Below are positions 206 through 18,930 of a stretch of DNA of 36,428 nucleotides, in pieces. The position numbers and the translations under genes were made by a program. The stretch is from an uncultured Planctomycetaceae bacterium. GTDB lineage: Bacteria; Planctomycetota; Planctomycetia; Planctomycetales; Planctomycetaceae. The notes beneath the pieces were generated by a model. It was not told where the DNA came from. It did no database searches and worked only from the letters and a program-made list of their open reading frames with translations. Numbering within the stretch: position 1 is the first letter of the stretch; each line of letters opens with the position of its first letter. The DNA lies in assembly GCA_903858815.1 (NCBI GenBank), contig CAIOKE010000058.1:1-36428 (forward strand). The letters run 5' to 3'.

Positions 206-261
206 TGGGGTGAGGGCAGAGCAGGGGAGTTGTTGCTGGATTTCAGTTTTCAGTGGGTGCC

Positions 262-273
262 GGGGGGGGGGGG
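262..273. repeat. 12-G homopolymer tract before a start codon
   Basis: Twelve consecutive G residues end 4 bases before the ATG at 278. The tract occupies the place where the ribosome binding site of the first sulfatase should be. A TCAGTTT-TCAGTGG heptamer pair (242-255) lies directly in front of it. Such tracts are prone to slippage and also to sequencing error. Confidence 0.85.
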
Positions 274-277
274 ACTG

Positions 278-1738
278 ATGCACGTTGTGTGGCGGTTGGT
301 TGTTCTGCTGGTGGTATCGGTGTGTATCGGTCGGTTGGTAGCTGCTGAGTCGGCTGATGTGCGGCCGAATGTGCTGTTTATTATGGCGGACGATTATCGT
401 CCTGAGCTGGGGGCTTATGGTTCTGCGGCATTGACGCCGCATCTGGATCGTCTGGCCGCATCAGCGCGATTGTTTCGGCGTGCGTACTGTCAGCAGGCGG
501 TGTGTAATCCGTCGCGTTCTTCGCTGCTGACGGGGCGTCGTCCGGATTCGCTGCAGATCTGGAACAACAGTGTGCATTTTCGTGAGCGGAATCCGGATGT
601 GATGACGTTGCCACTGTGGTTTCGTCGCCACGGCTATCAGACTCGTTGTGCCGGCAAGATCTTTCACAACTGGCACACGAAAATCCATGGTGATCCGGTT
701 TCCTGGAGTGCTCCGGAGTTTCTGCATTTCGCCAATCACGGTGATGATTTGGCGCGGGTAGTGGGTGAGTTGCCGCCGAATCGTGCTGTGACGACGAAGG
801 GCTTTGGGTATGCGGGGCCGGGCATCTGTGAATGTCGTGACGTACCGGACGAGGCGTATTATGACGGGCGAGTGGCGGCAGAGGCGGTGCGTCTGCTGGG
901 TGAATTCGGGGATCAGCCATTTTTTCTGGCGGTAGGTTTCTGGAAGCCTCATGCGCAGTTCAACGCGCCGCAGAAGTACTGGGATCTGTATCAGCGGGAT
1001 GAGCTGCCGGTGCTGGATGGTCGTCGTCCGGAAGGGGCAGTGGAGGCGGCGTTTCATGAGAGCACTGAGGTGCTGGGTCCTGTGGCTCAGCAGAAGGTTC
1101 CTTCAGCAGCGCAGGCTGCGGAAATGCGTCATGGCTATTTTGCGAATATCAGCTACCTGGATGCTCAGGTGGGGAAAGTTCTGGGGGCACTGGAATCGAG
1201 TGGTCTGGCAGATCGCACGATCGTGGTGTTTCTGAGTGATCATGGTTATCAGGTGGGTGAGCATGGTTTGTGGGGCAAGACCTCGAACTTCGAATATGAT
1301 GCTCGAGTGCCACTATTGATTCGCAGTCCGGTTCAGCAGTCGGGTCCGGGAGAGACGAGCAGTCTGGTGGAGCTGATTGATGTGTTTCCGACTTTGGCAG
1401 AGTTGTGTGGTCTGCCGCAGCCAGCGGGTCTGGAGGGTGTCAGTCTGGTACCGGTTCTGCGGGACGGTGGCATGCGTGTGAAGGCAGCAGCTCGAACCCA
1501 GCATCCTCGCCCGGCCTACTACGATCGAACTCCTGCGGGTGAGCCGCAGCTGATGGGGTATAGTGTGCGGACTGAGTCAGCGCGGTACACGGAGTGGCGG
1601 GACTGGAAAACGGGAGTGGTGCAGGGTCGCGAGTTGTATCTGGAATCTGACGAGCCCGGGGAGCTGCGGAACGTGGCGGGTGACGTGGCTGCAGCGGATG
1701 TGCTGCGTGAGTGTGAGCGACTGTTGCGGCAGGACTGA
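278..1738 (+). CDS. Sulfatase, iduronate-2-sulfatase-like
   Basis: This is an exported type I sulfatase of 486 residues, expected to hydrolyse sulfate esters on a glycan or small organic sulfate in the periplasm. The ATG at 278 is chosen because it opens a clear signal peptide (residues 1-23, ending VAA), whereas the frame upstream gives an unlikely leader. The metal-binding pair D38-D39 follows PNVLFIMA. The maturation motif C76-N-P-S-R is followed by SSLLTGRRP, so Cys76 would become formylglycine. A later SDHGYQVGEHGLWGK block is typical of the iduronate-2-sulfatase/choline-sulfatase branch. It is 91 bp upstream of a close paralogue in the same direction, probably co-transcribed. The usual Shine-Dalgarno position is occupied by a 12-G run. 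Substrate cannot be read from the sequence. Confidence 0.93.
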   Translation: MHVVWRLVVLLVVSVCIGRLVAAESADVRPNVLFIMADDYRPELGAYGSAALTPHLDRLAASARLFRRAYCQQAVCNPSRSSLLTGRRPDSLQIWNNSVHFRERNPDVMTLPLWFRRHGYQTRCAGKIFHNWHTKIHGDPVSWSAPEFLHFANHGDDLARVVGELPPNRAVTTKGFGYAGPGICECRDVPDEAYYDGRVAAEAVRLLGEFGDQPFFLAVGFWKPHAQFNAPQKYWDLYQRDELPVLDGRRPEGAVEAAFHESTEVLGPVAQQKVPSAAQAAEMRHGYFANISYLDAQVGKVLGALESSGLADRTIVVFLSDHGYQVGEHGLWGKTSNFEYDARVPLLIRSPVQQSGPGETSSLVELIDVFPTLAELCGLPQPAGLEGVSLVPVLRDGGMRVKAAARTQHPRPAYYDRTPAGEPQLMGYSVRTESARYTEWRDWKTGVVQGRELYLESDEPGELRNVAGDVAAADVLRECERLLRQD

Positions 1739-1829
1739 AGGGCTGAGATCAGCAGGTCAGGGAAAAGCAATCAAAATCCGGACGGTTTGACAGAATACTA
1801 TGGAACAGTGGTTGTGAAGGGGTGGAGCG

Positions 1830-3500
1830 ATGGGACGAATCGTGCAGTTTCTGGTGTTTGTGGTGTTGCTGGCCGGTGAGGTGGGTTTGGGTGCGGGTGA
1901 GTCGACTGCTGTGGTGGCTCAGTCGCGTCCGAACGTGTTGTTGATCTGTGTGGACGATCTGAAGCCGTTGCTGGGCTGTTATGGTGATTCGCTGGCGAAG
2001 ACTCCGAATCTGGACCGTCTGGCGGCGGGTGGTGTGCGGTTTGAGCGTGCCTATTGCAATCAGGCGGTTTGTTCTCCTTCGCGTAACGCGTTGCTGACGG
2101 GACTGCGTCCGCAGACTCTGGGGATTTATGACCTTGGTACAAATTTCCGGGTGGGTCGACCGGAGGCGATTACGCTGGGCCAGCATTTTCGTGCTCAGGG
2201 GTATTACGCGGAGAGTCTGGGGAAGATTTTTCATGTGGGGCATGGGAATGGAGATGATGCGCGTTCGTGGGATGTGGAGTCATGGAAGGCGAAGGTCAGT
2301 CAGTATGCGGTGGCGGAGCATGGATCTACGGGTACTGAGACGAAGGGTGTGGCGTATGAGTCAGCGGATGTGCCTGACAATCAGTATGCGGATGGTCAGA
2401 CAGCGGATGAGGCGATTGTGCGATTGAGGGCTGCGCGTGAGCGGGGGACTCCGTTTTTTCTGGCAGTGGGATTTCTGAAGCCGCATCTGCCGTTTGTGGC
2501 ACCGCAGAAGTACTGGGATCTGCATGATCGTGAGAAGTTTGTGCCGGCGGGTCTGCAGACACCACCTGCGGGAGCTCCGCAGTGGGCTCCGCAGTTTGGC
2601 GGTGAGTTGCGGAATTATCGTGATCTGCCGAAGCAGGGGCGGTTATCGGACGATCTGCAGCGAACATTGATCCATGGTTATTATGCGGCGGCCAGTTATA
2701 TGGACGCGCAGGCAGGTCGAGTGCTGGATGAGCTGCAGCGACTGGGTCTGCGTGACAACACGATTGTGGTCCTGTGGGGTGACCATGGCTGGCATCTGGG
2801 TGATCATGGGATGTGGTGCAAGCACACGAACTATGAGCAGGCGGCAAGGATCCCTCTGATTGTGTCGATGCCGGGTGCCAAAGCGGGTGTCAGCAGTGCG
2901 GCGTTCATTGAGGCGGTGGATGTGTATCCGACGTTATCTGAGCTGGCGGGACTGCCGCAGCCGACGGGGCTGGACGGTCGAAGTTTTGCAAAGCTGTTAT
3001 CGGATCCGGCATCACAGCATCGAGATCATGTGATTCATGTGTATCCGCGAACGGCTGAGGGGCGTGGCAGTCTGCTGGGTCGGGCGATTCGCACGGAGCG
3101 TTATCGTCTGGTGGAGTGGAAGCCTGCGGGTGGTGCGGCAGCGGAGGCGGAGTATGAGTTGTATGATTATGCAGCTGACCCGCAGGAGTCGGTGAATCTG
3201 GCGGGGACTCAGCCGGAGACTGTGCGTGCACTGCAGAAGCTGCTGGCCGGTCATCCTGAAGCGCGGCCGCAGGTGCGGGCCGGGGATTCCGGTCAGCCGT
3301 CGGCCGCGACCGGCAAGCAGGACCGTGATGCGATGTTTGCGCGGCGTGATCGGGATGGTGACGGCAAGCTGTCTCGAGCGGAGTTTCTGGAGGGTCAGTC
3401 GGATCCTGCGAAGGCACCGGGTCGATTTGTGAAGTTTGATGTGAACAAGGATGGTGTTCTGAGTCGGAATGAATTTGTGACAAGTGGGGGGAGGGAATAG
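1830..3500 (+). CDS. Sulfatase with C-terminal EF-hand pair
   Basis: This is a second iduronate-2-sulfatase-like enzyme of 556 residues, closely similar to its upstream neighbour: both share FFLAVGF-KPH, APQKYWDL and GLPQP blocks. The signal peptide spans about residues 1-24. Metal ligands D42-D43 and the formylglycine motif C81-S-P-S-R are intact. After the sulfatase domain, a linker rich in Gly, Ser and Ala leads to two canonical EF-hand loops. These are at 507-519 (DRDGDGKLSRAEF) and 537-549 (DVNKDGVLSRNEF), and both have all calcium-coordinating positions. The first sulfatase has no such tail. The EF-hands may stabilise the enzyme with Ca2+ or mediate attachment; this is inference. A purine-rich GGGGTGGAGCG precedes the ATG at 1830. 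Confidence 0.93.
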   Translation: MGRIVQFLVFVVLLAGEVGLGAGESTAVVAQSRPNVLLICVDDLKPLLGCYGDSLAKTPNLDRLAAGGVRFERAYCNQAVCSPSRNALLTGLRPQTLGIYDLGTNFRVGRPEAITLGQHFRAQGYYAESLGKIFHVGHGNGDDARSWDVESWKAKVSQYAVAEHGSTGTETKGVAYESADVPDNQYADGQTADEAIVRLRAARERGTPFFLAVGFLKPHLPFVAPQKYWDLHDREKFVPAGLQTPPAGAPQWAPQFGGELRNYRDLPKQGRLSDDLQRTLIHGYYAAASYMDAQAGRVLDELQRLGLRDNTIVVLWGDHGWHLGDHGMWCKHTNYEQAARIPLIVSMPGAKAGVSSAAFIEAVDVYPTLSELAGLPQPTGLDGRSFAKLLSDPASQHRDHVIHVYPRTAEGRGSLLGRAIRTERYRLVEWKPAGGAAAEAEYELYDYAADPQESVNLAGTQPETVRALQKLLAGHPEARPQVRAGDSGQPSAATGKQDRDAMFARRDRDGDGKLSRAEFLEGQSDPAKAPGRFVKFDVNKDGVLSRNEFVTSGGRE

Positions 3501-3504
3501 GGGG

Positions 3505-3688
3505 CAGTGATCAGTTGTCAGTTGTCAGTGGGGCAGGGTTGCCCTTGGGAGGGCGAGGCTCCTGCCGAGCCGCAGGGTGCTGTTGCGGCGGGGGTGGTGG
3601 TCAGGGGGTGTTACCGAGCTGGTGCTCGGTGGTCCCGGGCGGGCTGGGGCGGGCCGTCGGTGTCAGCCGTCGGGTGTTGTTTGGGTGA
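3505..3688. repeat. Composite intergenic repeat, copy 2
   Basis: This is a second near-complete copy of the repeat at 44-205, in the same orientation. It has heptamers at 3511-3531 (TCAGTTG, TCAGTTG, TCAGTGG), module A at 3545-3574, and module B with the ACCGAGC-TGGT-GCTCGGT hairpin at 3607-3639. A GC-rich tail follows. It separates the second sulfatase from the third. Modules A and B are essentially identical to those of copy 1, while the linkers between them differ, suggesting that the hairpin modules are what is conserved. Confidence 0.85.
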
Positions 3689-3691
3689 TGC

Positions 3692-3725
3692 TTTTTTGAA
3701 CCACGAAAGACACGAAACGAAAGAC
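3692..3725. repeat. CACGAAA-type dispersed repeat
   Basis: A T-run followed by GAACCACGAAAGACACGAAA and a further CGAAAGAC. This resembles a short intergenic element that I recall from many unrelated bacteria with expanded intergenic repeats. It abuts copy 2 of the composite repeat and precedes the third sulfatase. Confidence 0.6.
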
Positions 3726-3784
3726 GCTGGACGACAGTTTGATTGTGACAGGCTGAGGTGGGCGGTTGGAGGGAGGGGGGAGTG

Positions 3785-5278
3785 ATGCGGGATATGTTTT
3801 TGTGTGGGTTGTTTGCGTTGTGTGTTGAGTTGGGGGTGGTGGTGGACGTGTGTTTGGCGGGTGCCGAGCGGCCGAACATTATTCTGTTTCTGGCGGACGA
3901 TCTGGGTTGGGGTGATCTGGGGTGTTACGGTCATCCTGTGATTCGGACTCCGCATCTGGATACGTTTGCTGGTCAGGGTCTGCGACTGACATCGTGTTAT
4001 GCGGCGAGTGCTGTATGCAGTCCGTCGCGTTCAGCGCTGCTGACCGGCAGGACTCCGCATCGCAACGGTGTATACACGTGGATCGCTGAGGGTGCTCCGG
4101 TGCATCTGCGGACGACTGAGCGGACCTTACCGACTTTGCTGCGTGCGGCGGGTTACGGCACCTGTCACACGGGAAAGTGGCATCTGAACGGGCTGTTCAA
4201 TCAGGCGGATCAGCCGCAGCCGGATGCTCATGGATATGACTGGTGGATGGCGACTCAGAACAACGCGGCTCCCAGTCATCACAACCCGGTGAACTTTGTG
4301 AGGAACGGTGTACCGGTGGGTCCATTGGAGGGTTATTCGGCGTTATTGACGGTGGATGAGGCGGTGCGGTGGCTGCGGTCTGAGCGTGATCGGAGTCGTC
4401 CATTTTTCCTGACTGTGTGGACTCATGAACCGCATTATCCGATCGCTGCTGCTGCGGAATATCAGGCATTGTATCCGGAGCTGCCGGATGTGGTGCAGCG
4501 TGAGCATCACGCCAACGTGACTCAGCTGGACGCGGCGTTCGGGCGATTGATGCAGGAGCTGGACGCTGAGCAGCTGACGAGTGAAACGCTGGTTGTGTTT
4601 ACGTCGGACAATGGTCCGGAGGGCGATGGTGTGACGTCACCGGGTCGAGGATCGACGGGTGGTCTGCGTGGTCGCAAGCGGCACTTGTACGAGGGTGGGA
4701 TTCGCGTGCCGGGTCTGGTTCGCTGGCCTGGGAAGGTGGCGGCTGGTGCGGTCTGTGATGTACCGATCATTGGCAGTGATGTATTTCCGACGCTGCTGGC
4801 GGCGGCGGGAGTGAGTGTGCCGAGTGAGCGGGTGCTGGACGGCGTGAATGTGCTGCCGGTGCTGACGGGGCAGGCAGCTGCCGTGGAGCGGGAGCGTCCG
4901 TTATACTGGCGTCTGCTGATGGCTCCGCAGATGAAGTCAGCGCTGCGTGACGGAGACTGGAAGCTGCTGGCTGATGAGCGACTGGAGCGGATGGAACTTT
5001 ATAATCTGCGTATGGACGAGCATGAGACGACGGATCTGCGGGAGCGTGAGCCGGAGAAGTTTGAGCAGTTGCGTTCGCGATTGATTGCGCTGACTGCGGA
5101 GATTGATGCGGAGGGTCCGGACTGGTGGAAGACGCTCAGTCCGAATGGTGGCGGTGTTGTGCGGGATGAAAAGCAGAAGAACAAGCAGAAGAAACAGCAG
5201 TCGGGAGTGAAGCAGGGGCAGCGTCAGCAGGTGTCGCCGTCGGGTGGTCGTAAGGCAGAGCAGCAGGAGCAGCAGTGA
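3785..5278 (+). CDS. Sulfatase, arylsulfatase A-like
   Basis: This is an exported sulfatase of 497 residues, from a different branch to the first two. It begins with a signal peptide (about residues 1-27, ending LAGA). The motif [20 protein letters not shown] gives metal ligands D38-D39, and C78-S-P-S-R followed by [11 protein letters not shown] is the formylglycine site. The start at ATG 3785 is favoured over upstream codons because it follows GGAGGGAGGGGGGAGTG and opens the signal peptide. The central TGKWHLNG and TSDNGPEG blocks are typical of arylsulfatase A-type enzymes. The last ~35 residues are a Lys/Gln-rich, low-complexity tail of unknown role. Its stop codon overlaps the start of the next gene by one base, so the two are probably translated together. 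Confidence 0.93.
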
Positions 5279-6624
5279 TGGGGAGTCTGTTGAGTTATCG
5301 CATGTTTGTGGTTGTGTTGTTGCTCTGGTCTGCCGGGTGTTTTTCGGTACAGGCGCAGCAGTCGCCTTATGCTGAGTATCCGGAGGCAAAGGCTCCGTAT
5401 TATCGAGTGCGTTACGAGGTATCTGCGGAGCCTGATGGGTTGATTTTTCCGGTGAATTACGCGCTCTGGGTGCCTCCGGGTGTCTCGCGGCTGCGAGGTG
5501 TGGTGGTGCACCAGCATGGTTGTGGGGAGGGTTCGTGTCGATCGGGTTTGACGGGAGCGTGGGATCTGCACTGGCAGGCGCTGGCAAAGGCTCATGATTG
5601 TGCCTTGTTGTCACCGGCTTATGAGCAGCCGGAGGGTGCGGACTGTCAGCGGTGGTGTGATCCACGAAATGGTTCGGCTGCTGCCTTTTTGCGGGCGCTG
5701 CGTGATCTGGGGGCGGCGAGTGGTCATCCGGAGCTATCGGAGGTTCCGTGGGCCTTATGGGGTCACAGTGGTGGTGGTCACTGGGCTGGGGGGATGGTGT
5801 TGTTATATCCGGAGCGAGTTGCGGCTGCGTGGCTGCGTTCGGGAGTTCCGTTGCTGGAGGCGGATCCTGGTCGAGTGGGCGTGCGGGCTCATCAGCTTTC
5901 GGAAGGTGCTTTGCAGGTGCCGTTGATGTGTAATCTGGGGACGCAGGAGGGCGTCACTGTGAAGGACGGTCGTTTTGCCGGTGTGTGGCCGGCGAATGAG
6001 ACATTTTTTCGGGCGGTACGTGGCCGGGGCGGTCTGATTGCGGTGGCGGTTGATCCGTTGTCGAGTCATGACTGCGGTAATCAGCGATATCTGGCGATTC
6101 CGTGGCTGGATGACTGTCTGCGGCAACGATTGCCGTCTGCTGGTGAGGCGGGTGTCGGGCTGCGGTCACTGGAGTCCGCAGCAGCGTGGTTGGCTCCTGT
6201 CTCTGGTGGTACGGCGGTGGTGGCCGAGGGTTTTCCAGGGAACGTTCGGGAGCTGGGCTGGTTACCGAGTGAGCAGACTGCACGGCGCTGGGAGCAGTAT
6301 GTGCGGGACACGAAGGTGGAGGATGCCACCGCAGCACCTCAGCCGGTCAATCTGCGGGTGCGTGGGAACGAGCTGACGTGGGAATGCGAAGCGGATCTGG
6401 AAAGTGGTCTGGCGGGATTTGTGATTGAGCGGGATGGTCAGGAGCTGGTACGGCTTCCGGAGCAGGGGAAGAATCCCTTTGGTCGGGTGTTGTTTCAGAA
6501 TCTGCAGTACAGTGATACTCCGACGATGCCCCTGGTACCGATGCGTTACGTGGATCGTACGGCTGAGGTGGGGCGTCGTTATGAGTACCGTGTGCGGGCG
6601 GTGAATACGGCAGAGCGGATTTAG
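5278..6624 (+). CDS. Secreted alpha/beta hydrolase with Fn3-like tail
   Basis: This predicted exported hydrolase of 448 residues is likely an esterase. The N-terminus is hydrophobic. Signal peptidase I could cut after VQA (residue 26), or S-A-G-C21 could act as a lipobox. An HQHGCGEG block near residue 78 resembles an oxyanion-hole loop, and GHSGGG at 162-167 is the nucleophile elbow with Ser164. About residues 345-448 look like an Fn3-like beta domain ([15 protein letters not shown], then VIERDGQEL and YEYRVRAVN). The ATG at 5278 shares one base with the stop codon of the preceding sulfatase. A GTG at 5275 is possible but less likely. The context suggests it removes ester groups from the same sulfated substrate, but this is inference. 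Its TAG stop runs directly into a heptamer repeat array. Confidence 0.85.
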
Positions 6625-12037: not shown

Positions 12038-13342
12038 ATGACCGCTGAGACTGCTCGAGAAGTTGTGATTACGGGCATCGGGGTATTCAGTCCGATTGGC
12101 ATTGGTCGCAGTGCCTTTTGGTCGGGATTAGCTGAGGGCCGTTGTGGTCTGAAGCGTGTGCAGCATGCAGCGTGGGTGGCGGCCCCGGGTTGTATTGGTG
12201 GCGAGGTCAGTGATTTCAACGACGAGTCGGCGAAGAAGGAGCATCTGAAGAGTCTGCGTAAGAGTCTGAAGGTGATGTGTCGTGAGATTCAGATGGGTGT
12301 TGCGTCGGCTTTGCAGGCGATGGACGACGCGGGTTTAACGGTGGGTATGGTGCCACCGGATCGGATTGGTTGTGATTTCGGTGCCAATCTGATGAGCAGT
12401 CCTCCCGAGGTGATTCTTGAGGGTGCTCTTCGTTCAAGGACTCAGCGGACTGGCAATCTGGCGTTTGATTACGACCAGTGGGGTGAGGTTGGGATGCCGG
12501 GTCTGGAGCCATTGTGGTTATTGAAGTATCTGCCGAACATGCCTGGCTGTCACATTGGGATTGCTCTTGAGGCGCATGGTCCGAACAACTCGATTACTCA
12601 TGACGAGGCTTCTGGTGGTTTGGTGCTGGGTGAGGCGTGCAATGCGATTCGTCGGAATCGTGCGGACGTGATGGTGGCTGGCGTCACGGGGACTCGCCTG
12701 CACACAGTGAAGGCCTGTCAGTCGGCTCGTCTGGATGTGCTTGCGGAAGGTCCGGCTGAGCAGCGTTTGCGGCCGTTTGACCGTCAGCGTTCTGGTGAGG
12801 CGTTATCTGAGGCGGCGTGCAGTCTGATTCTGGAATCGCGTGCTCACGCTGAAGCTCGTGGAGCGAAGATTCTTGGCACAGTGCTTGCCTGTGGCGCCAG
12901 TTCTGTGGCGAGTCGTGACGGTGCAGCGGACGAGGCGGAGGCTGTTTATCTGGCGGGTCGAGCGGCGCTGGAGCGAGCGGGTGTATCGGCTGCGGATCTG
13001 GGTCATGTGAATGCCTGTGCTGCGGGCAATCCGGCGCGTGATCGTTACGAGGCAATGGGGTTGCGGAAGCTGCTGGGTTCAGCAGCGGACAGCGTGCCTG
13101 TGACAGCGATCAAAAGTTACATCGGAAGTTCGGGCAGCGGGTCATCATTGGTTGAGCTGGCAGCGTCATTACTATCCCTGCGCGATGGCGCAATTGCTCC
13201 GACTTTGAATTATTCGTCTGCCGACGAAGTGGCTCCTTTGAATGTGGTCCATGGTTCGTTTGCGAAGGCAGCCAGCGGGCTATTTCTGAAAACCAGTGTG
13301 ACTCGAATGGGCCAGGCGAGTGCTGTGGTCGTGCGGGTTTAG
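12038..13342 (+). CDS. Ketosynthase-fold protein lacking the catalytic triad
   Basis: This 434-residue protein is homologous over its whole length to beta-ketoacyl-ACP synthases of the FabF type: VVITGIGVFSPIG at the start, ALQAMDDAGL, RRNRADVMVAG, then PFDRQRSGEALSEAACSLILE. The catalytic residues are missing. At the active-site Cys position of the GPSYTVSTACASS-type motif, the sequence is GPNNSITHDEASGG, placing Glu190 there. The first catalytic His (NAHGTSTP in the family) is Cys327 in NACAAGNP, and the second (TKSMTGHLLGAAG) is Ser364 in IKSYIGSSGSG. The lysine of that motif, Lys359, is kept. It resembles chain-length-factor or KSQ-like partners rather than a condensing enzyme. No acyl carrier protein or active ketosynthase lies nearby. 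It is followed after 18 bp by the exporter genes. Confidence 0.88.
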   Translation: MTAETAREVVITGIGVFSPIGIGRSAFWSGLAEGRCGLKRVQHAAWVAAPGCIGGEVSDFNDESAKKEHLKSLRKSLKVMCREIQMGVASALQAMDDAGLTVGMVPPDRIGCDFGANLMSSPPEVILEGALRSRTQRTGNLAFDYDQWGEVGMPGLEPLWLLKYLPNMPGCHIGIALEAHGPNNSITHDEASGGLVLGEACNAIRRNRADVMVAGVTGTRLHTVKACQSARLDVLAEGPAEQRLRPFDRQRSGEALSEAACSLILESRAHAEARGAKILGTVLACGASSVASRDGAADEAEAVYLAGRAALERAGVSAADLGHVNACAAGNPARDRYEAMGLRKLLGSAADSVPVTAIKSYIGSSGSGSSLVELAASLLSLRDGAIAPTLNYSSADEVAPLNVVHGSFAKAASGLFLKTSVTRMGQASAVVVRV

Positions 13343-13360
13343 TCTTCACCGGGTGTGCCT

Positions 13361-14665
13361 ATGACAGTGGCTGGTTCGGGTGGTTCCGGCGATGCATTAG
13401 CGAAGCTGCGGATCCGACGTGACGAACCGTCGCGGGGTGGTGGCTGGCTGGGTGGATTTCTGCGTCTCGTGGTGACTCTGGTCATCCTTGCATTGCTGGG
13501 CATTGGAGGCTGGATTTTTCGCAGTTCTCCGGGGATGCTGGCGGACGCGGATCGTCTGATGGAGTCGGTGCGATCGAAGCCGGAAGTGCGGGTGGTTCTG
13601 GCCAGTATTGAGGAGGGCCGATCGGCGGACGCGACGGTGGTAGCGACGGGATATCTTCAATCGCGTCAGCAGGCCCGGATTGGTGCTCGAGCGACCGGTC
13701 GGATTCGGGAGGTGCTGGTTGAGGAGGGTGTGCGTGTCGGGACGAACGACGTGCTGGCGATTCTGGAGCACGCGGATCTGGACGCAGCGCTGGCTGCGGC
13801 TCAGGCGTCATCGGCTCGCTGCAGCAGTGAGTTGCAGGAGCAGGATGTTGTGATTCGTCGTACGAAGCGGGATTTGGAGCGAGCAGAGAAGCTGCTGGCT
13901 GGTCGCACGATGACTCAGGCCGAGTTTGACACTGAGCAGTTTGAGTTTGACGCGGCGGTAGCGCGTCGTGAATCGCTGCAGGCGGCATTGCAGTTAGCCG
14001 AGGCGCGGGTGCAGGAGGCGGTGCAGCTGCGAGAGAATATGTTTGTGCGAGCGCCCTTTGCGGGCACGGTGATTTCGAAGGATGCGGAACTGGGTGAGTC
14101 GATCATGCCGGGTGGCATGGGAGAGGCATCGGGTCGTGGTTCTGTGGTGACGATTGCGGATCTTGAGCATCTGGAGGTGGACTGCGACGTGAAGGAGGAC
14201 TTCATCAGTCGGGTGGCTCAGGGGCAGGTTGCAGAGGTTGCGGTGGATGCAGTTCCGGGTCGTCGTTATCGCGGTGTGGTGCGTAAGGTGATTCCGATGG
14301 GTGATCGTGCACGAGCGACGGTGAAGGTTCGAGTGGCGATTGAGGATGCGGATGAGAAGTTATTTCCGGAGATGAGCAGTACGGTGTATTTCCTGCCGCC
14401 TGATGAAGTGGTGGGTGCTGAAAAGCCATCTGAGGCGCGAGGCCGCCGGGTTTTCTGTCCGAACGATGCTTTACAGGTGTCGGGCAGTGAGGTTTGGGTC
14501 TGGGTGGTGGGTGCCGAGGATCGATTGAAGCGCGTGGTGGTGCAGGCTGGCGAGAAAAAAGAGGGTCGTACAGAGATTGTGAGTGGTCTGGTGGGTGGCG
14601 AGCGGTTGGTGGCTGGTGGTTCTGCTGACTACCGAGATGGTCTGGTTGTGAAGGTTCAGCAGTAG
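13361..14665 (+). CDS. HlyD/MacA-type periplasmic adaptor protein
   Basis: This membrane-fusion subunit of a tripartite or MacAB-like exporter links the inner-membrane ABC pump to the cell envelope. It has 434 residues: an N-terminal cytoplasmic tail, one transmembrane helix (about 30-53), and a lipoyl/biotinyl-like half-motif near ATGRIREVLVEEGVRVGTND. A long alpha-helical hairpin rich in Ala, Gln and Glu follows (about 145-235), then the second lipoyl half (FVRAPFAGTVISKDAELGE) and beta-barrel domains. The ATG at 13361 is preferred; a GTG two codons upstream (13355) is possible. It lies 18 bp after the ketosynthase-like gene and 63 bp before the ATPase gene, so the genes probably form one operon. 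Confidence 0.88.
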   Translation: MTVAGSGGSGDALAKLRIRRDEPSRGGGWLGGFLRLVVTLVILALLGIGGWIFRSSPGMLADADRLMESVRSKPEVRVVLASIEEGRSADATVVATGYLQSRQQARIGARATGRIREVLVEEGVRVGTNDVLAILEHADLDAALAAAQASSARCSSELQEQDVVIRRTKRDLERAEKLLAGRTMTQAEFDTEQFEFDAAVARRESLQAALQLAEARVQEAVQLRENMFVRAPFAGTVISKDAELGESIMPGGMGEASGRGSVVTIADLEHLEVDCDVKEDFISRVAQGQVAEVAVDAVPGRRYRGVVRKVIPMGDRARATVKVRVAIEDADEKLFPEMSSTVYFLPPDEVVGAEKPSEARGRRVFCPNDALQVSGSEVWVWVVGAEDRLKRVVVQAGEKKEGRTEIVSGLVGGERLVAGGSADYRDGLVVKVQQ

Positions 14666-14728: not shown

Positions 14729-15451
14729 GTGAGTGGGACAGTAGGTGAGCCGCTGGTTATTGTGCGGAATGTTGGCAAGGAGTTCCGTCGTGATCAGCTG
14801 GTAATACCGGTGCTGAACGGCATGAATCTGCAGCTGGAGTCTGGTGGTTATCTGGCGTTGATGGGTCCTTCGGGGTCTGGCAAGACGACGTTGCTGAATC
14901 TGATTGCGGGGCTGGATCGTCCGACGTCGGGTGAGGTGATTGTGTGTGGTCAGGATCTGTCGCGATCGTCTGAGGGTGAGCTGGCGAAGTGGCGAGCGCG
15001 GTACATCGGGTTCATTTTTCAGATGTATAATCTGATTCCGGTGCTGACGGCCTATGAGAATGTGGAGTTACCACTGACTCTGACATCGCTCAGTCGTCGT
15101 GAGCGTGACGAGCACGTCAGGGCGGCACTGGAGGTCGTAGGTCTGGCGGAGCGAATGGATCATTATCCGCGTCAGTTGTCTGGTGGTCAGGAGCAGCGGG
15201 TGGCCATTGCGCGGGCGATTGTGACTGATCCATCGTTGCTGGTGGCTGACGAGCCAACCGGGGATCTTGATGCGAAGTCTGCGGGAGAGATTCTGGATCT
15301 GATGCAGCGTCTGAATACGGAGTTTCAGAAAACGATCGTGATGGTGACTCATGACCCGGGAGCGGCAGCGCGAGCGAAGCGTGTGCTGCATCTGGAGAAG
15401 GGTCTGCTGGTATCGGATACATCGACTGCTGGTCTGCGGGGAGCGGTGTGA
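14729..15451 (+). CDS. ABC transporter ATP-binding protein, MacB/LolD type
   Basis: This is the ATPase subunit of the exporter, 240 residues. Walker A is GPSGSGKT (46-53), the Q-loop glutamine is Q98, the signature is LSGGQEQR (150-157), Walker B is LLVADEP with Glu175, and the switch His208 lies in MVTHDP. This pattern and length fit the MacB/LolD/FtsE group that pairs with FtsX-type permeases. The start is a GTG at 14729, well placed behind AGAGGGGGTGAG. Its stop codon shares one base with the ATG of the first permease, indicating translational coupling. Confidence 0.95.
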
Positions 15452-16608
15452 TGCACACACTGAAGTATATCTGGCGAAACATGCGTCGGAACGCTGTCCG
15501 GACTTTGCTGACGGTGCTGTCGGTGGGGTTCAGTCTGGCGTTGATGACGGTGCTGTATGGATTTCTGGCGTCGCAGGACACGTATCGTGATGCTGCATCG
15601 CAGGCCAGCCGTGTTGTGGTGATGAACATCCAGGGGTTCAGTGGTCGGCTGCCCATTTCTGCTCTGGACGACGTGCGTGGCATGGAGCATGTGGCGGCAG
15701 CGGTGCCGTTATCGTGGTATGGCGGATCTTATCAGGACGAGCAGATGCCGTTTGCTCAGTTTGCGACGGATCCGCAGCAGCTGTTTGAGGTGTGGCCGGA
15801 GTATTCGATGCCGGCGGAGCAGCTGGAGTCGTGGAAGCAGAACCGTCAGGGTTGTGTGATTGATCGGCGAATTGCAGAGCGGCGGGGCTGGAAGGTGGGT
15901 GATCGGATTCCGTTGAAGGGCAATCTGTATCCGTTTGATCTGGATCTGCAGATCTGCGGGATCTTTGATTCACCGAAGAACACGGATTCGCTGTATTTTC
16001 ACTGGAGCTATCTGAACGAGGGGTTGCGGCAGCAGAATTTTGCGGTGCTGGACAATGCCGGTACGATTTTTCTGCGAGTGGGTGAATCGCCGCAGATTCC
16101 GGCCGTGATCAAGGGGGTGGATGATCGTTTCGGCAGTTCTGATACTCCCACGCGTTCTCAGACCGAAGCCGCATTTGCTCAGATGTTTGTCGATATGCTG
16201 GGCAATGTGCAGGTATTGATTCGGAACATTGGTCTGGCGGTGGTGTTTTCACTGTCGTTGGTAACAGCCAATTCGATGGCGATGGCGATGCGTGAGCGTG
16301 TGACAGAGATAGCGGTCCTGAAGGCGATCGGTTTCAGTCGCAGTCGAATTCTGCGCATGGTTCTGGGTGAAGCCTGTCTGATAGCGATCAGCGGGGGTGT
16401 GCTGGGTACAGCGATCGGTTGTTTATTTCTGCAGGGCATGAACCGGTTATTACCGCAGTTTTTCCCTTTCACGGTTGCTGAGATGCTTGGTCCGTGGGTC
16501 AGTTATGGTTTTCTGGCGGCGGTATTTCTTGGTTTGGTGAGTGGCATCGTACCGGCACTTCGAGCAGCGCGGATGTCGGTAGTGGACGGACTGCGACGGA
16601 TTGCCTGA
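15451..16608 (+). CDS. FtsX/MacB-type ABC permease, first of two
   Basis: This is an inner-membrane permease of 385 residues with the MacB/FtsX layout. One N-terminal helix (about 16-38) is followed by a large periplasmic domain (about 40-250), and three helices form the C-terminal FtsX domain. That domain contains MRERVTEIAVLKAIGFSRSRIL, the coupling region that contacts the ATPase. The ATG at 15451 overlaps the stop of the ATPase gene. The second permease follows after 15 bp and has the same length and layout but a different sequence, so the transporter is probably a heterodimer. Confidence 0.92.
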   Translation: MHTLKYIWRNMRRNAVRTLLTVLSVGFSLALMTVLYGFLASQDTYRDAASQASRVVVMNIQGFSGRLPISALDDVRGMEHVAAAVPLSWYGGSYQDEQMPFAQFATDPQQLFEVWPEYSMPAEQLESWKQNRQGCVIDRRIAERRGWKVGDRIPLKGNLYPFDLDLQICGIFDSPKNTDSLYFHWSYLNEGLRQQNFAVLDNAGTIFLRVGESPQIPAVIKGVDDRFGSSDTPTRSQTEAAFAQMFVDMLGNVQVLIRNIGLAVVFSLSLVTANSMAMAMRERVTEIAVLKAIGFSRSRILRMVLGEACLIAISGGVLGTAIGCLFLQGMNRLLPQFFPFTVAEMLGPWVSYGFLAAVFLGLVSGIVPALRAARMSVVDGLRRIA

Positions 16609-16623
16609 CGTGTGGGGTGAGAG

Positions 16624-17781
16624 ATGATACCGGCGAAATATAATGTGCGGAATCTGCGAGTCCGCTGGATCACGACGCTGATGACCGTGCTGAGTACGGG
16701 TCTTGTGGTGTGGGCATCGGTGTTGTGTTTTGGTCTGACGGATGGTCTGCGGTATGCTCTGCAGGTGACAGGTCACGAGCTGGATCTGATCGTGCTGCGC
16801 AAGGGTTCAGCGGATGAGATTGGCAGTGGTCTTGAGCAGAAGGTTGCGCGGGAAGTTTCGACATTGCCGGGGATTGCAAAGGACGGGAGTGGTCAGCCGC
16901 TGTGTTCGGTGGAGTTTGTCACGATTCTGACGAAGCCTCGTCGCAACAACGGCGGCACAGTGAATCTGATTGTGCGGGGTCTGGAGGATGTTGGTCGGGA
17001 TCTGCGTCCGGACTTTCGTATTGTGGAGGGTCGTGATCTGGAGCCGGGTAAGTTTGAGGCGATTACAAGTCGCAGTATGGCAGCGCGGTTTGAGAATCTG
17101 GCGATTGGCGAGAAGCTGGAGGTGAATCGTCAGTTTTTTGAGGTGGTGGGGTATTTTGAGGCTGCCGGCAGTGCGGCCGAGTCTGAGGTCTGGACGGATC
17201 TGCGGGATCTTGGTCTGGCGCGAAAGTCACCGGCGGCGGTCAGTTCGGTGTGTCTGCGGGCTGAGAGTGTTGAACAGAGGGATCAGCTGCAGCAGCAGCT
17301 GCAGGACGACAAGCGATTCCAGATGAAGGCGATTTCAGAGAAGCAGTATTTTGAAGACCAGATGAATCAGTCGAATGCGATTCAGTACATCGGGTATATC
17401 ATTGCGGGTTTCCTGATTTTCGGTGCGATGTTTGCGGCGGCTAATACGATGTTTGCAGCTGTGGCCAGCCGAGCTCGCGAGATCGGTACTCTGCGGGCAC
17501 TGGGATTTTCCCGAGTGGCGATCCTGTCATCGTTTCTGTTTGAGGCGATTCTATTGTGCCTGCTGGGTGGATTACTGGGTTGTCTGGCGACGTTGCCGTT
17601 CAATGGTTTGTCCACGGGTACGATGAACCAGTTCAGTGAGATTACGTTTTCCTTCCGTTTTGGGCCTCGCGTGCTGGCTCAGGGAGTCATTCTGGCGGTC
17701 TCAATGGGATTACTGGGTGGTCTGTTACCGGCTTTGCGTGCTGTCCGGTTGAACATTGTGACTGCGCTGCGTGAGCGTTGA
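16624..17781 (+). CDS. FtsX/MacB-type ABC permease, second of two
   Basis: This is the partner permease, also 385 residues: an N-terminal helix (about 14-36), a periplasmic domain, and a C-terminal three-helix FtsX domain. It contains ASRAREIGTLRALGFSRVAIL, equivalent to the coupling segment of the first permease. The start at ATG 16624 follows GGGGTGAGAG. The periplasmic part (HELDLIVLRKGSADEIGSG, then LIVRGLEDVGRDLRP) is of the MacB-like kind. Nothing in it identifies the substrate. A 228-bp gap with no gene separates it from the C39-like protease. Confidence 0.92.
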   Translation: MIPAKYNVRNLRVRWITTLMTVLSTGLVVWASVLCFGLTDGLRYALQVTGHELDLIVLRKGSADEIGSGLEQKVAREVSTLPGIAKDGSGQPLCSVEFVTILTKPRRNNGGTVNLIVRGLEDVGRDLRPDFRIVEGRDLEPGKFEAITSRSMAARFENLAIGEKLEVNRQFFEVVGYFEAAGSAAESEVWTDLRDLGLARKSPAAVSSVCLRAESVEQRDQLQQQLQDDKRFQMKAISEKQYFEDQMNQSNAIQYIGYIIAGFLIFGAMFAAANTMFAAVASRAREIGTLRALGFSRVAILSSFLFEAILLCLLGGLLGCLATLPFNGLSTGTMNQFSEITFSFRFGPRVLAQGVILAVSMGLLGGLLPALRAVRLNIVTALRER

Positions 17782-18009: not shown

Positions 18010-18930
18010 ATGTCCGATCTGCAGACCAGCCTGTTGCTGATGATGGGGCTGGCTGCGGCATTCGCGGGTCTTGGTGCTGTGCTGCAGCGATTGCCCAGTG
18101 GCCGTCCTCTGGCAGTTGGCCTGGTTTCAGTGACTCTGCTGATGCTGGTCTATGTTGTTTTGATCTGGGACAGTCCTCTGCTGGTGCGTCTGTTGCCATT
18201 TTCCGGCGCGATCATTCTGGGCAACTGGTTGCCATTGATTGGCGCGTTCTACGCGGGTGTGTGTTTTCAGGCCACAGGCGTACCCATCGTGCGTCGTGTG
18301 CTGTTATCCGGTGTTCTGGTGGGATTGTGTGGTTATTCGCTGGTCAGTCCATTACTGGGAAGTACTCCTTGTTGTGCGCGTGTGGAATTTGAGCGTGTGC
18401 TGGAGTTCCAGACGACGGATTCCACCTGTTCGGCTGCATGTGCTGCAAGCTTACTGCGGGTTCACGGGATTGATGCCACAGAGCGAGAGATGGCCAGTCT
18501 CTGTCTGACTCGCGAGGGGACTCACTGGCTGGGTCTGTATCGTGGTCTGAAGGTGAAGACGGCGGGCACGGACTGGGATGTGGTGGTGGAGCGTGTTTCC
18601 GGCCAGACTTTGTTAAGTCAGGGCAGTGAGTCGGGGGTCCTGTCGCTGACCTTTCATGGTTTTGCCTCGAATCGATCATTTGAGACGGGTTTTGCGGTGC
18701 AGTCAGGGCATGCTGTTGTGTGTCTGGGGCGAGGTGGTCCCGGCGTTTTGAAGGTCTTCGATCCGTCTCCGGACTACGGCTTTGAGAACTGGGACTGGAA
18801 GCAACTGGAGCAGGTGGAGTCGGCAATTCTGGTGCGACTGGAGCCGCGTGCGGGTCGTGCTGTTGAGCGGATTCCGGATCCTCGTCAGTTGTGGGACAAG
18901 AATGTTGTCTACTGGGAACGTGCCCGCTGA
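18010..18930 (+). CDS. Membrane-anchored C39-like cysteine protease
   Basis: This protein of 306 residues has about four hydrophobic helices (6-25, 35-53, 63-85 and 96-117), then a C39-like papain-fold domain. The domain starts FQTTDSTCSAACAASLLRVHGI, giving the oxyanion Gln134 and nucleophile Cys140. It continues with SGHAVVCLGRGGPGVLKVFDPS, giving His234 and Asp251. C39 peptidases typically cut double-glycine leaders of exported peptides and are often fused to ABC exporters; here the domain is on a separate membrane protein. Its start (ATG 18010) has GGCGAGG upstream. It is the next gene after a complete MacAB-like exporter, but the 228-bp gap leaves co-transcription unproven. I see no double-glycine precursor in the window. 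Confidence 0.75.
   Translation: MSDLQTSLLLMMGLAAAFAGLGAVLQRLPSGRPLAVGLVSVTLLMLVYVVLIWDSPLLVRLLPFSGAIILGNWLPLIGAFYAGVCFQATGVPIVRRVLLSGVLVGLCGYSLVSPLLGSTPCCARVEFERVLEFQTTDSTCSAACAASLLRVHGIDATEREMASLCLTREGTHWLGLYRGLKVKTAGTDWDVVVERVSGQTLLSQGSESGVLSLTFHGFASNRSFETGFAVQSGHAVVCLGRGGPGVLKVFDPSPDYGFENWDWKQLEQVESAILVRLEPRAGRAVERIPDPRQLWDKNVVYWERAR

Follow-up and report, generated by a model that had tools for sequence, protein, structure and literature searches.

A maintained planctomycete ketosynthase homologue without its three catalytic residues and its putative role as a KSbeta-type subunit

Type II fatty acid synthases are regarded as working with homodimeric ketosynthases (KSs), whereas heterodimers of KS and KSbeta are seen as a speciality of polyketide synthesis. 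KSQ decarboxylases carry Gln in place of the nucleophile Cys and keep both catalytic His. The KSalpha/KSbeta pair sets chain length, as described in the available part of PMC4383371, and elongating KSs have a GFGG gating loop, as described in the available part of PMC7138838. Altered KSs of planctomycetes are in print as well: in its available part, the 2009 paper of Rattray et al. (PMC2649909) gives Rhodopirellula baltica NP_866153 with Glu163, His298, Lys328 and Asn333, R. baltica NP_865682 with Asp163 and both His kept, and three Kuenenia paralogues without the Cys and both His (Val/Asn/Glu, Phe/Asn/Glu and Ser/Ser/Asn). An acid in place of the Cys, and paralogues without all three residues, were thus already printed for planctomycetes in 2009. 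Its authors listed the residues, built a tree and suggested that substrate and function differ; the available part of the paper neither reads any copy as a KSbeta nor links the acid-bearing ones to fabF, and lists no Glu-bearing copy without both His. A 2023 catalogue of such pairs outside the actinobacteria (PMC10132072), again in its available part, counts Planctomycetes among 14 phyla with pairs of a KS and a chain-length factor (CLF) and notes pairs of two FAS-type KSs, and that part goes without residues, fabF linkage or orphan KSbetas. In the open-licence literature, mostly titles and abstract openings, we found no KSbeta beside fabF, no stepwise KSbeta series and no orphan with Glu, Cys and Ser in planctomycetes. 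Here we describe a KS homologue encoded in the window (the whole stretch of 36,428 nucleotides that was analysed) from an uncultured Planctomycetaceae bacterium.

Fold and altered catalytic positions

The gene and the positions discussed below are as follows.

12038..13342, + strand: Cys-less ketosynthase homologue, putatively of KSbeta type, 434 aa (ORF list; Pfam PF00109/PF02801; clade of 60 Cys-less planctomycete KSs; model pLDDT 95.3)
12500..12595, + strand: residues 155-186 (around PLWLLKYLPNMPGCH), conservation hot spot of the Cys-less family (invariant-column count)
12605..12607, + strand: codon GAG of Glu190, aligned with the FabF nucleophile Cys163 (phmmer and MAFFT)
13016..13018, + strand: codon TGT of Cys327, aligned with FabF His303, the first catalytic His (phmmer and MAFFT)
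13112..13114, + strand: codon of Lys359, retained, equivalent to FabF Lys335 (Lys in 55/60 rows of the Cys-less family)
13127..13129, + strand: codon AGT of Ser364, aligned with FabF His340, the second catalytic His (phmmer and MAFFT)
13301..13312, + strand: residues 422-425, TRMG, where elongating KSs have the GFGG gating loop (alignment)

The ORF opens with an ATG. Both Pfam KS domains (PF00109 and PF02801) scored above cut-off in the query protein, the AlphaFold2 single-chain model was confident (pLDDT 95.3, pTM 0.93), and the best Foldseek match by E-value was FabF C163Q (2gfv; TM 0.84 on the query). Model and structure search thus place the protein in the KASI/II fold, in agreement with the preliminary description of this DNA, in which FabF fold signatures were said to be kept. 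With the NCBIfam fabF model (TIGR03150) the query reached 202.7 bits, below the cut-off of 493.75. When the query was aligned with E. coli FabF by phmmer, Cys163, His303 and His340 corresponded to Glu190, Cys327 and Ser364; the MAFFT alignments concurred, confirming the replacements as they had first been read, and no Cys-His pair turned up at other places of the alignment. The query therefore has Glu, Cys and Ser where an elongating KS has its Cys and two catalytic His, and it has neither GFGG loop 1 nor Asp265, since FabF residues 399-402 are replaced by Thr-Arg-Met-Gly and Asp265 by Val290. Thr270, Thr305 and Thr307 of FabF are also changed. The preliminary description had not mentioned these further losses, and the altered pantetheine and gating positions argue against ordinary acyl-ACP loading.

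The first MAFFT alignment was made minus 3 duplicate rows. The larger one leaves out KSs no longer than 350 aa and rows that share the same C-terminus; it includes eight short loci chosen by a motif that contains the acidic residue, all of them earlier orthologue matches. Set A1 took in 55 of the 60 Cys-less rows.

The Cys-less family, its maintenance and the adjoining exporter

We searched 59 genomes with the query and obtained KS matches in all of them. Within the genus, orthologues (15/18 genomes) shared 68-92% identity with the query; for the other members of the family (17/19 genomes) the figure was 46-52%. A close orthologue was missing from three of the 18 genus genomes (G001, 100% complete; G002, 94%; G016, 79%), and the gene is thus dispensable. 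Among the 60 Cys-less planctomycete KSs (acid-KSs hereafter), residue 190 is Glu in 44, Asp in 14, Gly in 1 and Ser in 1; both His are lost in 24 (15 genus rows and 9 elsewhere), one in 31 and none in 5. The genus rows carry Glu190 (15/15), Ser364 (15/15) and Cys327 (14/15, with one Ser). As to whether Glu is fixed, a point raised with the preliminary description, it is so in the genus but not in the clade as a whole.

A further set of named loci comprises the best 80 of at least 593 confirmed loci and for that reason leans to the window's kin; several are the same contigs as loci carrying a genome handle, so that the sets are not independent. In these best 80 of at least 593, the tally for residue 190 was 71 E and 9 D. 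Residue 327 was read as H in 60, C in 8, N in 3, S, Q, F and D in 2 each and G in 1, residue 364 as N in 66, S in 12, D in 1 and a gap in 1; both His are lost in 20. Position 327 was read across the sets also as F, N, T, D, Q, V, S, C or G. Judged from these sequences, an acidic residue at 190 is the family's most constant trait and Asn in place of the second His its commonest state. In the tree of an 83-row clade, from which the truncated locus L150 was excluded, those named loci (best 80 of at least 593) whose residue 327 is Cys, Ser or Gly fall within one 16-row clade (support 100) that includes the window, and other double-His losses (e.g., L036, L069, L050 and L095) are placed outside it.

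These residues bear on one alternative, a non-condensing enzyme with a new dyad of Glu/Asp190 and His327 (without the His in the window) that would catalyse a different reaction on acyl-ACP, for instance malonyl-ACP decarboxylation, a hydrolysis or the shift of a double bond. The acidic residue in all 80 and His327 in 60 of the best 80 of at least 593 loci, Lys359 in 55/60 rows and the fatty acid genes that adjoin part of the family are in line with such an enzyme, and the His-keeping relatives could be catalytic in another way. We nevertheless consider it unlikely, because both His are lost in 24/60 rows and in 20 of those best 80 loci, the constrained genus of the window included, residue 327 is so varied, and KSQ decarboxylases keep both His.

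All 15 genus orthologues were open over the full match without internal stops, and dN/dS was low (0.049/0.589 for the query vs G010 and 0.127/1.174 for another genus pair, some pairs being saturated). The genus orthologues are under purifying selection; the query is a maintained protein and not a lone decayed gene, and the loss of its catalytic residues is more than chance or decay. In the acid-KSs, 8 of 23 invariant columns fall within residues 155-186 (hypergeometric p 8.1e-05, for a stretch picked post hoc), vs 0 of 46 in 31 Cys-KSs, a set that mixes FabF, KSalpha and Streptomyces KSs and excludes L081 and L082; this region we take to lie near the two-fold axis and the tunnel end in KAS dimers. 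A functionless, decaying relic would fit the loss of all three catalytic residues and the absence of the gene from 3/18 genus genomes, but is hardly credible beside the open orthologues, the low dN/dS and the family-wide invariant columns. That this copy might be a lone decayed case among homologues with an intact triad had been named as what would overturn the preliminary description: such homologues do occur at the KSbeta position in four loci, yet the gene is maintained, and a lone decayed copy was excluded by the 15/15 open orthologues and the low dN/dS. Since the residues needed by the known condensation mechanism are missing and the protein is maintained, the non-catalytic role that had been suggested is likely.

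The gene is followed by an exporter operon.

13355..14665, + strand: HlyD/RND-type membrane fusion protein, a neighbour, not counted in the function (Pfam PF16576)
14729..17781, + strand: ABC ATPase and two FtsX/MacB-like permeases, neighbours only (Pfam)

From the KS stop to the HlyD ORF, on the same strand, there are 12 bp to the listed GTG start and 18 bp to an ATG, so that the spacing of 18 bp first given holds from the ATG. A HlyD orthologue (E up to 1e-40) was found in 13/18 genus genomes and is adjacent to the KS in five of them (G000, G010, G007, G003 and G008); in seven, KS and HlyD orthologue are both present but on separate contigs, and G001 has the exporter and no close KS orthologue. 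The KS is present and the exporter absent in G009, G013 and G017 (61% complete), and G002 and G016 have neither the exporter nor a close KS orthologue. A HlyD gene lies nearby in 2 of the best 80 of at least 593 loci, these being the contigs of G007 and G003 once more. The linkage of KS and exporter is recent. It had been thought conceivable that the protein senses acyl groups or binds cargo for this HlyD-ABC-FtsX exporter, and the spacing of 12-18 bp on the same strand, together with the linkage kept in G010, G007, G003 and G008, speaks for that role. It is, however, very improbable: only 5/13 exporter-bearing genus genomes keep the adjacency, so that the exporter neighbours did not prove conserved, each gene occurs without the other, the two HlyD-linked loci of the best 80 are those same genus contigs, and the His loss predates the linkage. 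An exporter accessory was accordingly rejected on the patchy linkage and the order of events, the His having been lost before the move.

Elsewhere in the window, a 306-aa ORF behind the exporter (18010-18930) has no Pfam or NCBIfam match and occurs in 4 loci of the neighbourhood set including the window, a 449-aa ORF (5275-6624) has no Pfam match and occurs in 3 loci including the window, and 230-5278 holds a tandem of three sulfatase genes, one bearing EF-hand repeats.

Tandem ketosynthase pairs and linkage to fabF

On the window's contig the only KS match is this gene (Pfam PF00109, E 0.001), and no ACP was found in the window (PF00550, E 0.001); ACP matches of the same genome lie solely on contigs C37 and C87. 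The absence of a partner KS or ACP first noted thus holds for the window, where the gene is not beside a catalytic KS and an ACP as a KSbeta gene would be, but it fails for many relatives, in which KS and ACP adjoin. In its own genome the query adjoins neither fabF nor KSalpha. Contig C87 carries a KSalpha with an ACP and a FabA-like gene, with no KSbeta between, and contig C37 a FabF with an ACP; either may therefore be the partner of the query. A second Cys-less KS of this genome (L031; contig C162, 7758-9260), with Asp, Gln and His and no KS alongside, may compete with the query for the same role. On contig C119 (118508-118684; L057) there is also a short partial KS-domain match, 57 positions long, within a 516-aa frame.

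Of the 60 acid-KSs, 14 are followed immediately by a Cys-His-His KS, with gaps of -135 to 122 bp (starts chosen automatically). All of these tandem pairs fall outside the window's family (14/22 rows vs 0/38 inside), and for 41/60 rows the locus as read, in some cases short, has no Cys-His-His KS on the strand of the gene. In L048 (5865-14968) the gene order by Pfam is FabA-like, SDR, ACP, FabA-like, acid-KS, KS, alpha/beta hydrolase, a gene marked unknown and GH3, and other tandem loci share these genes by sequence cluster to a varying degree. An operon FabA-like - FabG - ACP - FabA-like - KSbeta - KSalpha - hydrolase - GH3 recurs (L048:5865-14968, L037:4013-12954 and others); GH3 (PF03321) was found in 1/14 control genomes.

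Eighteen further loci were fetched, 17 of them from outside the class. Of these 17, 13 hold a Cys-less KS (Cys replaced by D, E, N or S; H, T, F, N or D at the first His), and nine of the 13 are paired with a Cys-His-His KS (L199 and L204-L211). Among the unpaired loci, L203 holds part of a Cys-His-His KS, L214 and L216 end too soon and L215 has none. In L200, L201, L202 and L212 both tandem members are Cys-His-His, and the upstream members of these loci together with L049 are sister to the acid clade (bootstrap/SH-aLRT 99/96); these pairs may show the KSbeta lineage as it was before the loss. The tree has a KSbeta clade of 34 rows (100/98) that contains the acid clade of 29 rows (100/99), with a KSalpha clade of 22 rows (100/99) as its sister, and places the acid-KSs as descendants of the KSbeta of a KSalpha/KSbeta pair. 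On the tree of the 60 Cys-less planctomycete KSs, CLFs included, there are two Cys/non-Cys changes. The grouping of the intact pairs suggests the series intact pair, Cys lost, His lost.

Linkage to the housekeeping fabF was found in another part of the family. In 26 of the best 80 of at least 593 named loci the gene is preceded, within 3 kb and on its own strand, by a FabF; 25 of these 26 have an ACP match, 20 a FabD and 13 a PlsX. The remaining 54 of the best 80 have no such FabF, 15 of the 80 holding no more than 3 kb there. In L123 a relative is located 1.6 kb behind a KSalpha operon. Five further loci are fabF-linked: L213, and at 31-380 bp L036, L042, L072 (the contig of the named locus L143) and L074, in which NCBIfam names plsX, fabD, acyl carrier protein and fabF. 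All 27 FabF rows are Cys-His-His. Both His are lost in 4 of the 26 fabF-linked loci of the best 80 of at least 593, among them L116 and L118 (66 and 65% identity to the query) in the window's 16-row clade, which indicates that in the window's lineage the loss preceded leaving fabF and reaching the exporter. Members linked to fabF are found in each of the two large sub-branches of the 83-row clade, and, judged by eye, the linkage looks ancestral there; the query belongs to the fabF-linked branch but has relocated. When distances were compared in the 14 loci with all four genes (of the best 80 of at least 593; FabD was also compared), the acid-KS correlated with PlsX at r 0.80 and with FabF at r 0.73; PlsX thus tracks the acid-KS as well as FabF does, and no special tie to FabF shows.

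Two observations on these loci are recorded here. Upstream of FabF in L148, FabD matches lie in three separate open frames, possibly through a frameshift or assembly error. The fabF-linked acid-KSs of L182 and L186, both labelled Candidatus Kuenenia stuttgartiensis, cluster with those of the Planctomycetaceae/Planctomycetia MAGs L168 and L173, and the bin label may be wrong. Separately, a FabH substitute or sole initiator had been considered, as no FabH was seen in the annotated or probed fabF-side stretches (FabH was not among the probes); it was rejected, since FabH is over cut-off in 53/59 genomes including the window's own and PF08541 is present in 59/59.

A regulator or scaffold would also be compatible with a family that is maintained, Cys-less and partly fabF-linked: the dead KS would bind acyl-ACP or FabF and tune fatty acid synthesis outside the condensing tunnel. 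This we regard as improbable, given the changed pantetheine and gating positions (Thr270, Thr305, Thr307, Asp265 and GFGG) and because heterodimers explain the KSbeta-KSalpha pairing more simply.

Proposed role and comparison with known systems

From sequence comparison, the query is probably a non-condensing partner subunit of KSbeta type for FabF or for the operon KSalpha, with no chemistry of its own and no part in the exporter. It shares a clade with the KSbeta half of the tandem pairs in planctomycete FabZ-(FabG)-ACP-FabZ operons. On the trees built here the Cys was lost a single time at the base of the acid-KS clade, where the position is now mostly Glu or Asp, and one sub-branch is often found directly behind the housekeeping fabF. 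The lineage of the window subsequently lost both His, and its gene has left the side of fabF. The query may bind a catalytic KS as a heterodimer, as an actinobacterial CLF does, FabF being the most likely partner and the KSalpha on C87 the other; it would line part of the acyl tunnel and so shape chain length or substrate choice, and Glu190 may keep the dead nucleophile site in shape. A bolder reading, which we put forward as doubtful, is that in many Planctomycetia the housekeeping condensing enzyme is a heterodimer of FabF and a dead, acid-bearing KSbeta and not a FabF homodimer, so that the type II polyketide architecture would have been built independently into primary metabolism, the orphan, fully inactivated version of the window still acting in trans. 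A KSbeta that passed from the intact pair through loss of the Cys to loss of the His and reached the housekeeping fabF would be a stepwise natural series for the role of a dead KS subunit. What PMC2649909, as far as its available part goes, left open in 2009 also becomes testable as a pairing with fabF or KSalpha.

Among the described proteins, FabF (KASII) is like the query in fold (TM 0.84 to 2gfv) and in its Lys335, and unlike it in having the Cys, both His and the GFGG loop. The query (E, C, S) is no KSQ decarboxylase by its residues. The E-H-N pattern printed for R. baltica NP_866153 is that of the query's family, and the Rhodopirellula and Kuenenia paralogues, known here by the residues printed in the available part of PMC2649909, likely belong to the acid-KS clade.

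A close comparison is with the CLF of actinobacterial type II polyketide synthases, which like the query is FabF-like in sequence, with the Cys replaced, both His lost and the Lys kept. In six annotated Streptomyces CLFs the Cys is replaced by Q in 4, E in 1 and G in 1, the first His by D (6/6) and the second by R (6/6). The contrast once drawn with CLFs, that the query uses Glu and has lost both His, does not stand: all six lack the three residues and one has Glu, so that the query's loss matches these CLFs. Measured against these six, the query is a KSbeta/CLF in the broad sense, having the KS fold but a replaced Cys and no intact His pair. The two differ in that among the query's relatives His327 is often retained and the second His is often Asn, and in that GFGG is more fully replaced in the query. 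The six Streptomyces CLF genes lie between KSalpha and ACP, whereas the neighbours of the query's relatives are fabF or a FabZ/GH3 operon, and the window copy is linked to no KS. In the tree with the 34-row KSbeta clade the Streptomyces CLFs lie outside that clade; in an AU test on another row set, acid-KSs and CLFs as one clade gave p 0.657, with the constrained tree 9.0 log units above the quick free tree. As the AU test does not reject the joint clade, an origin of the planctomycete KSbetas separate from the actinobacterial CLFs is suggested by the KSbeta tree and is not firm.
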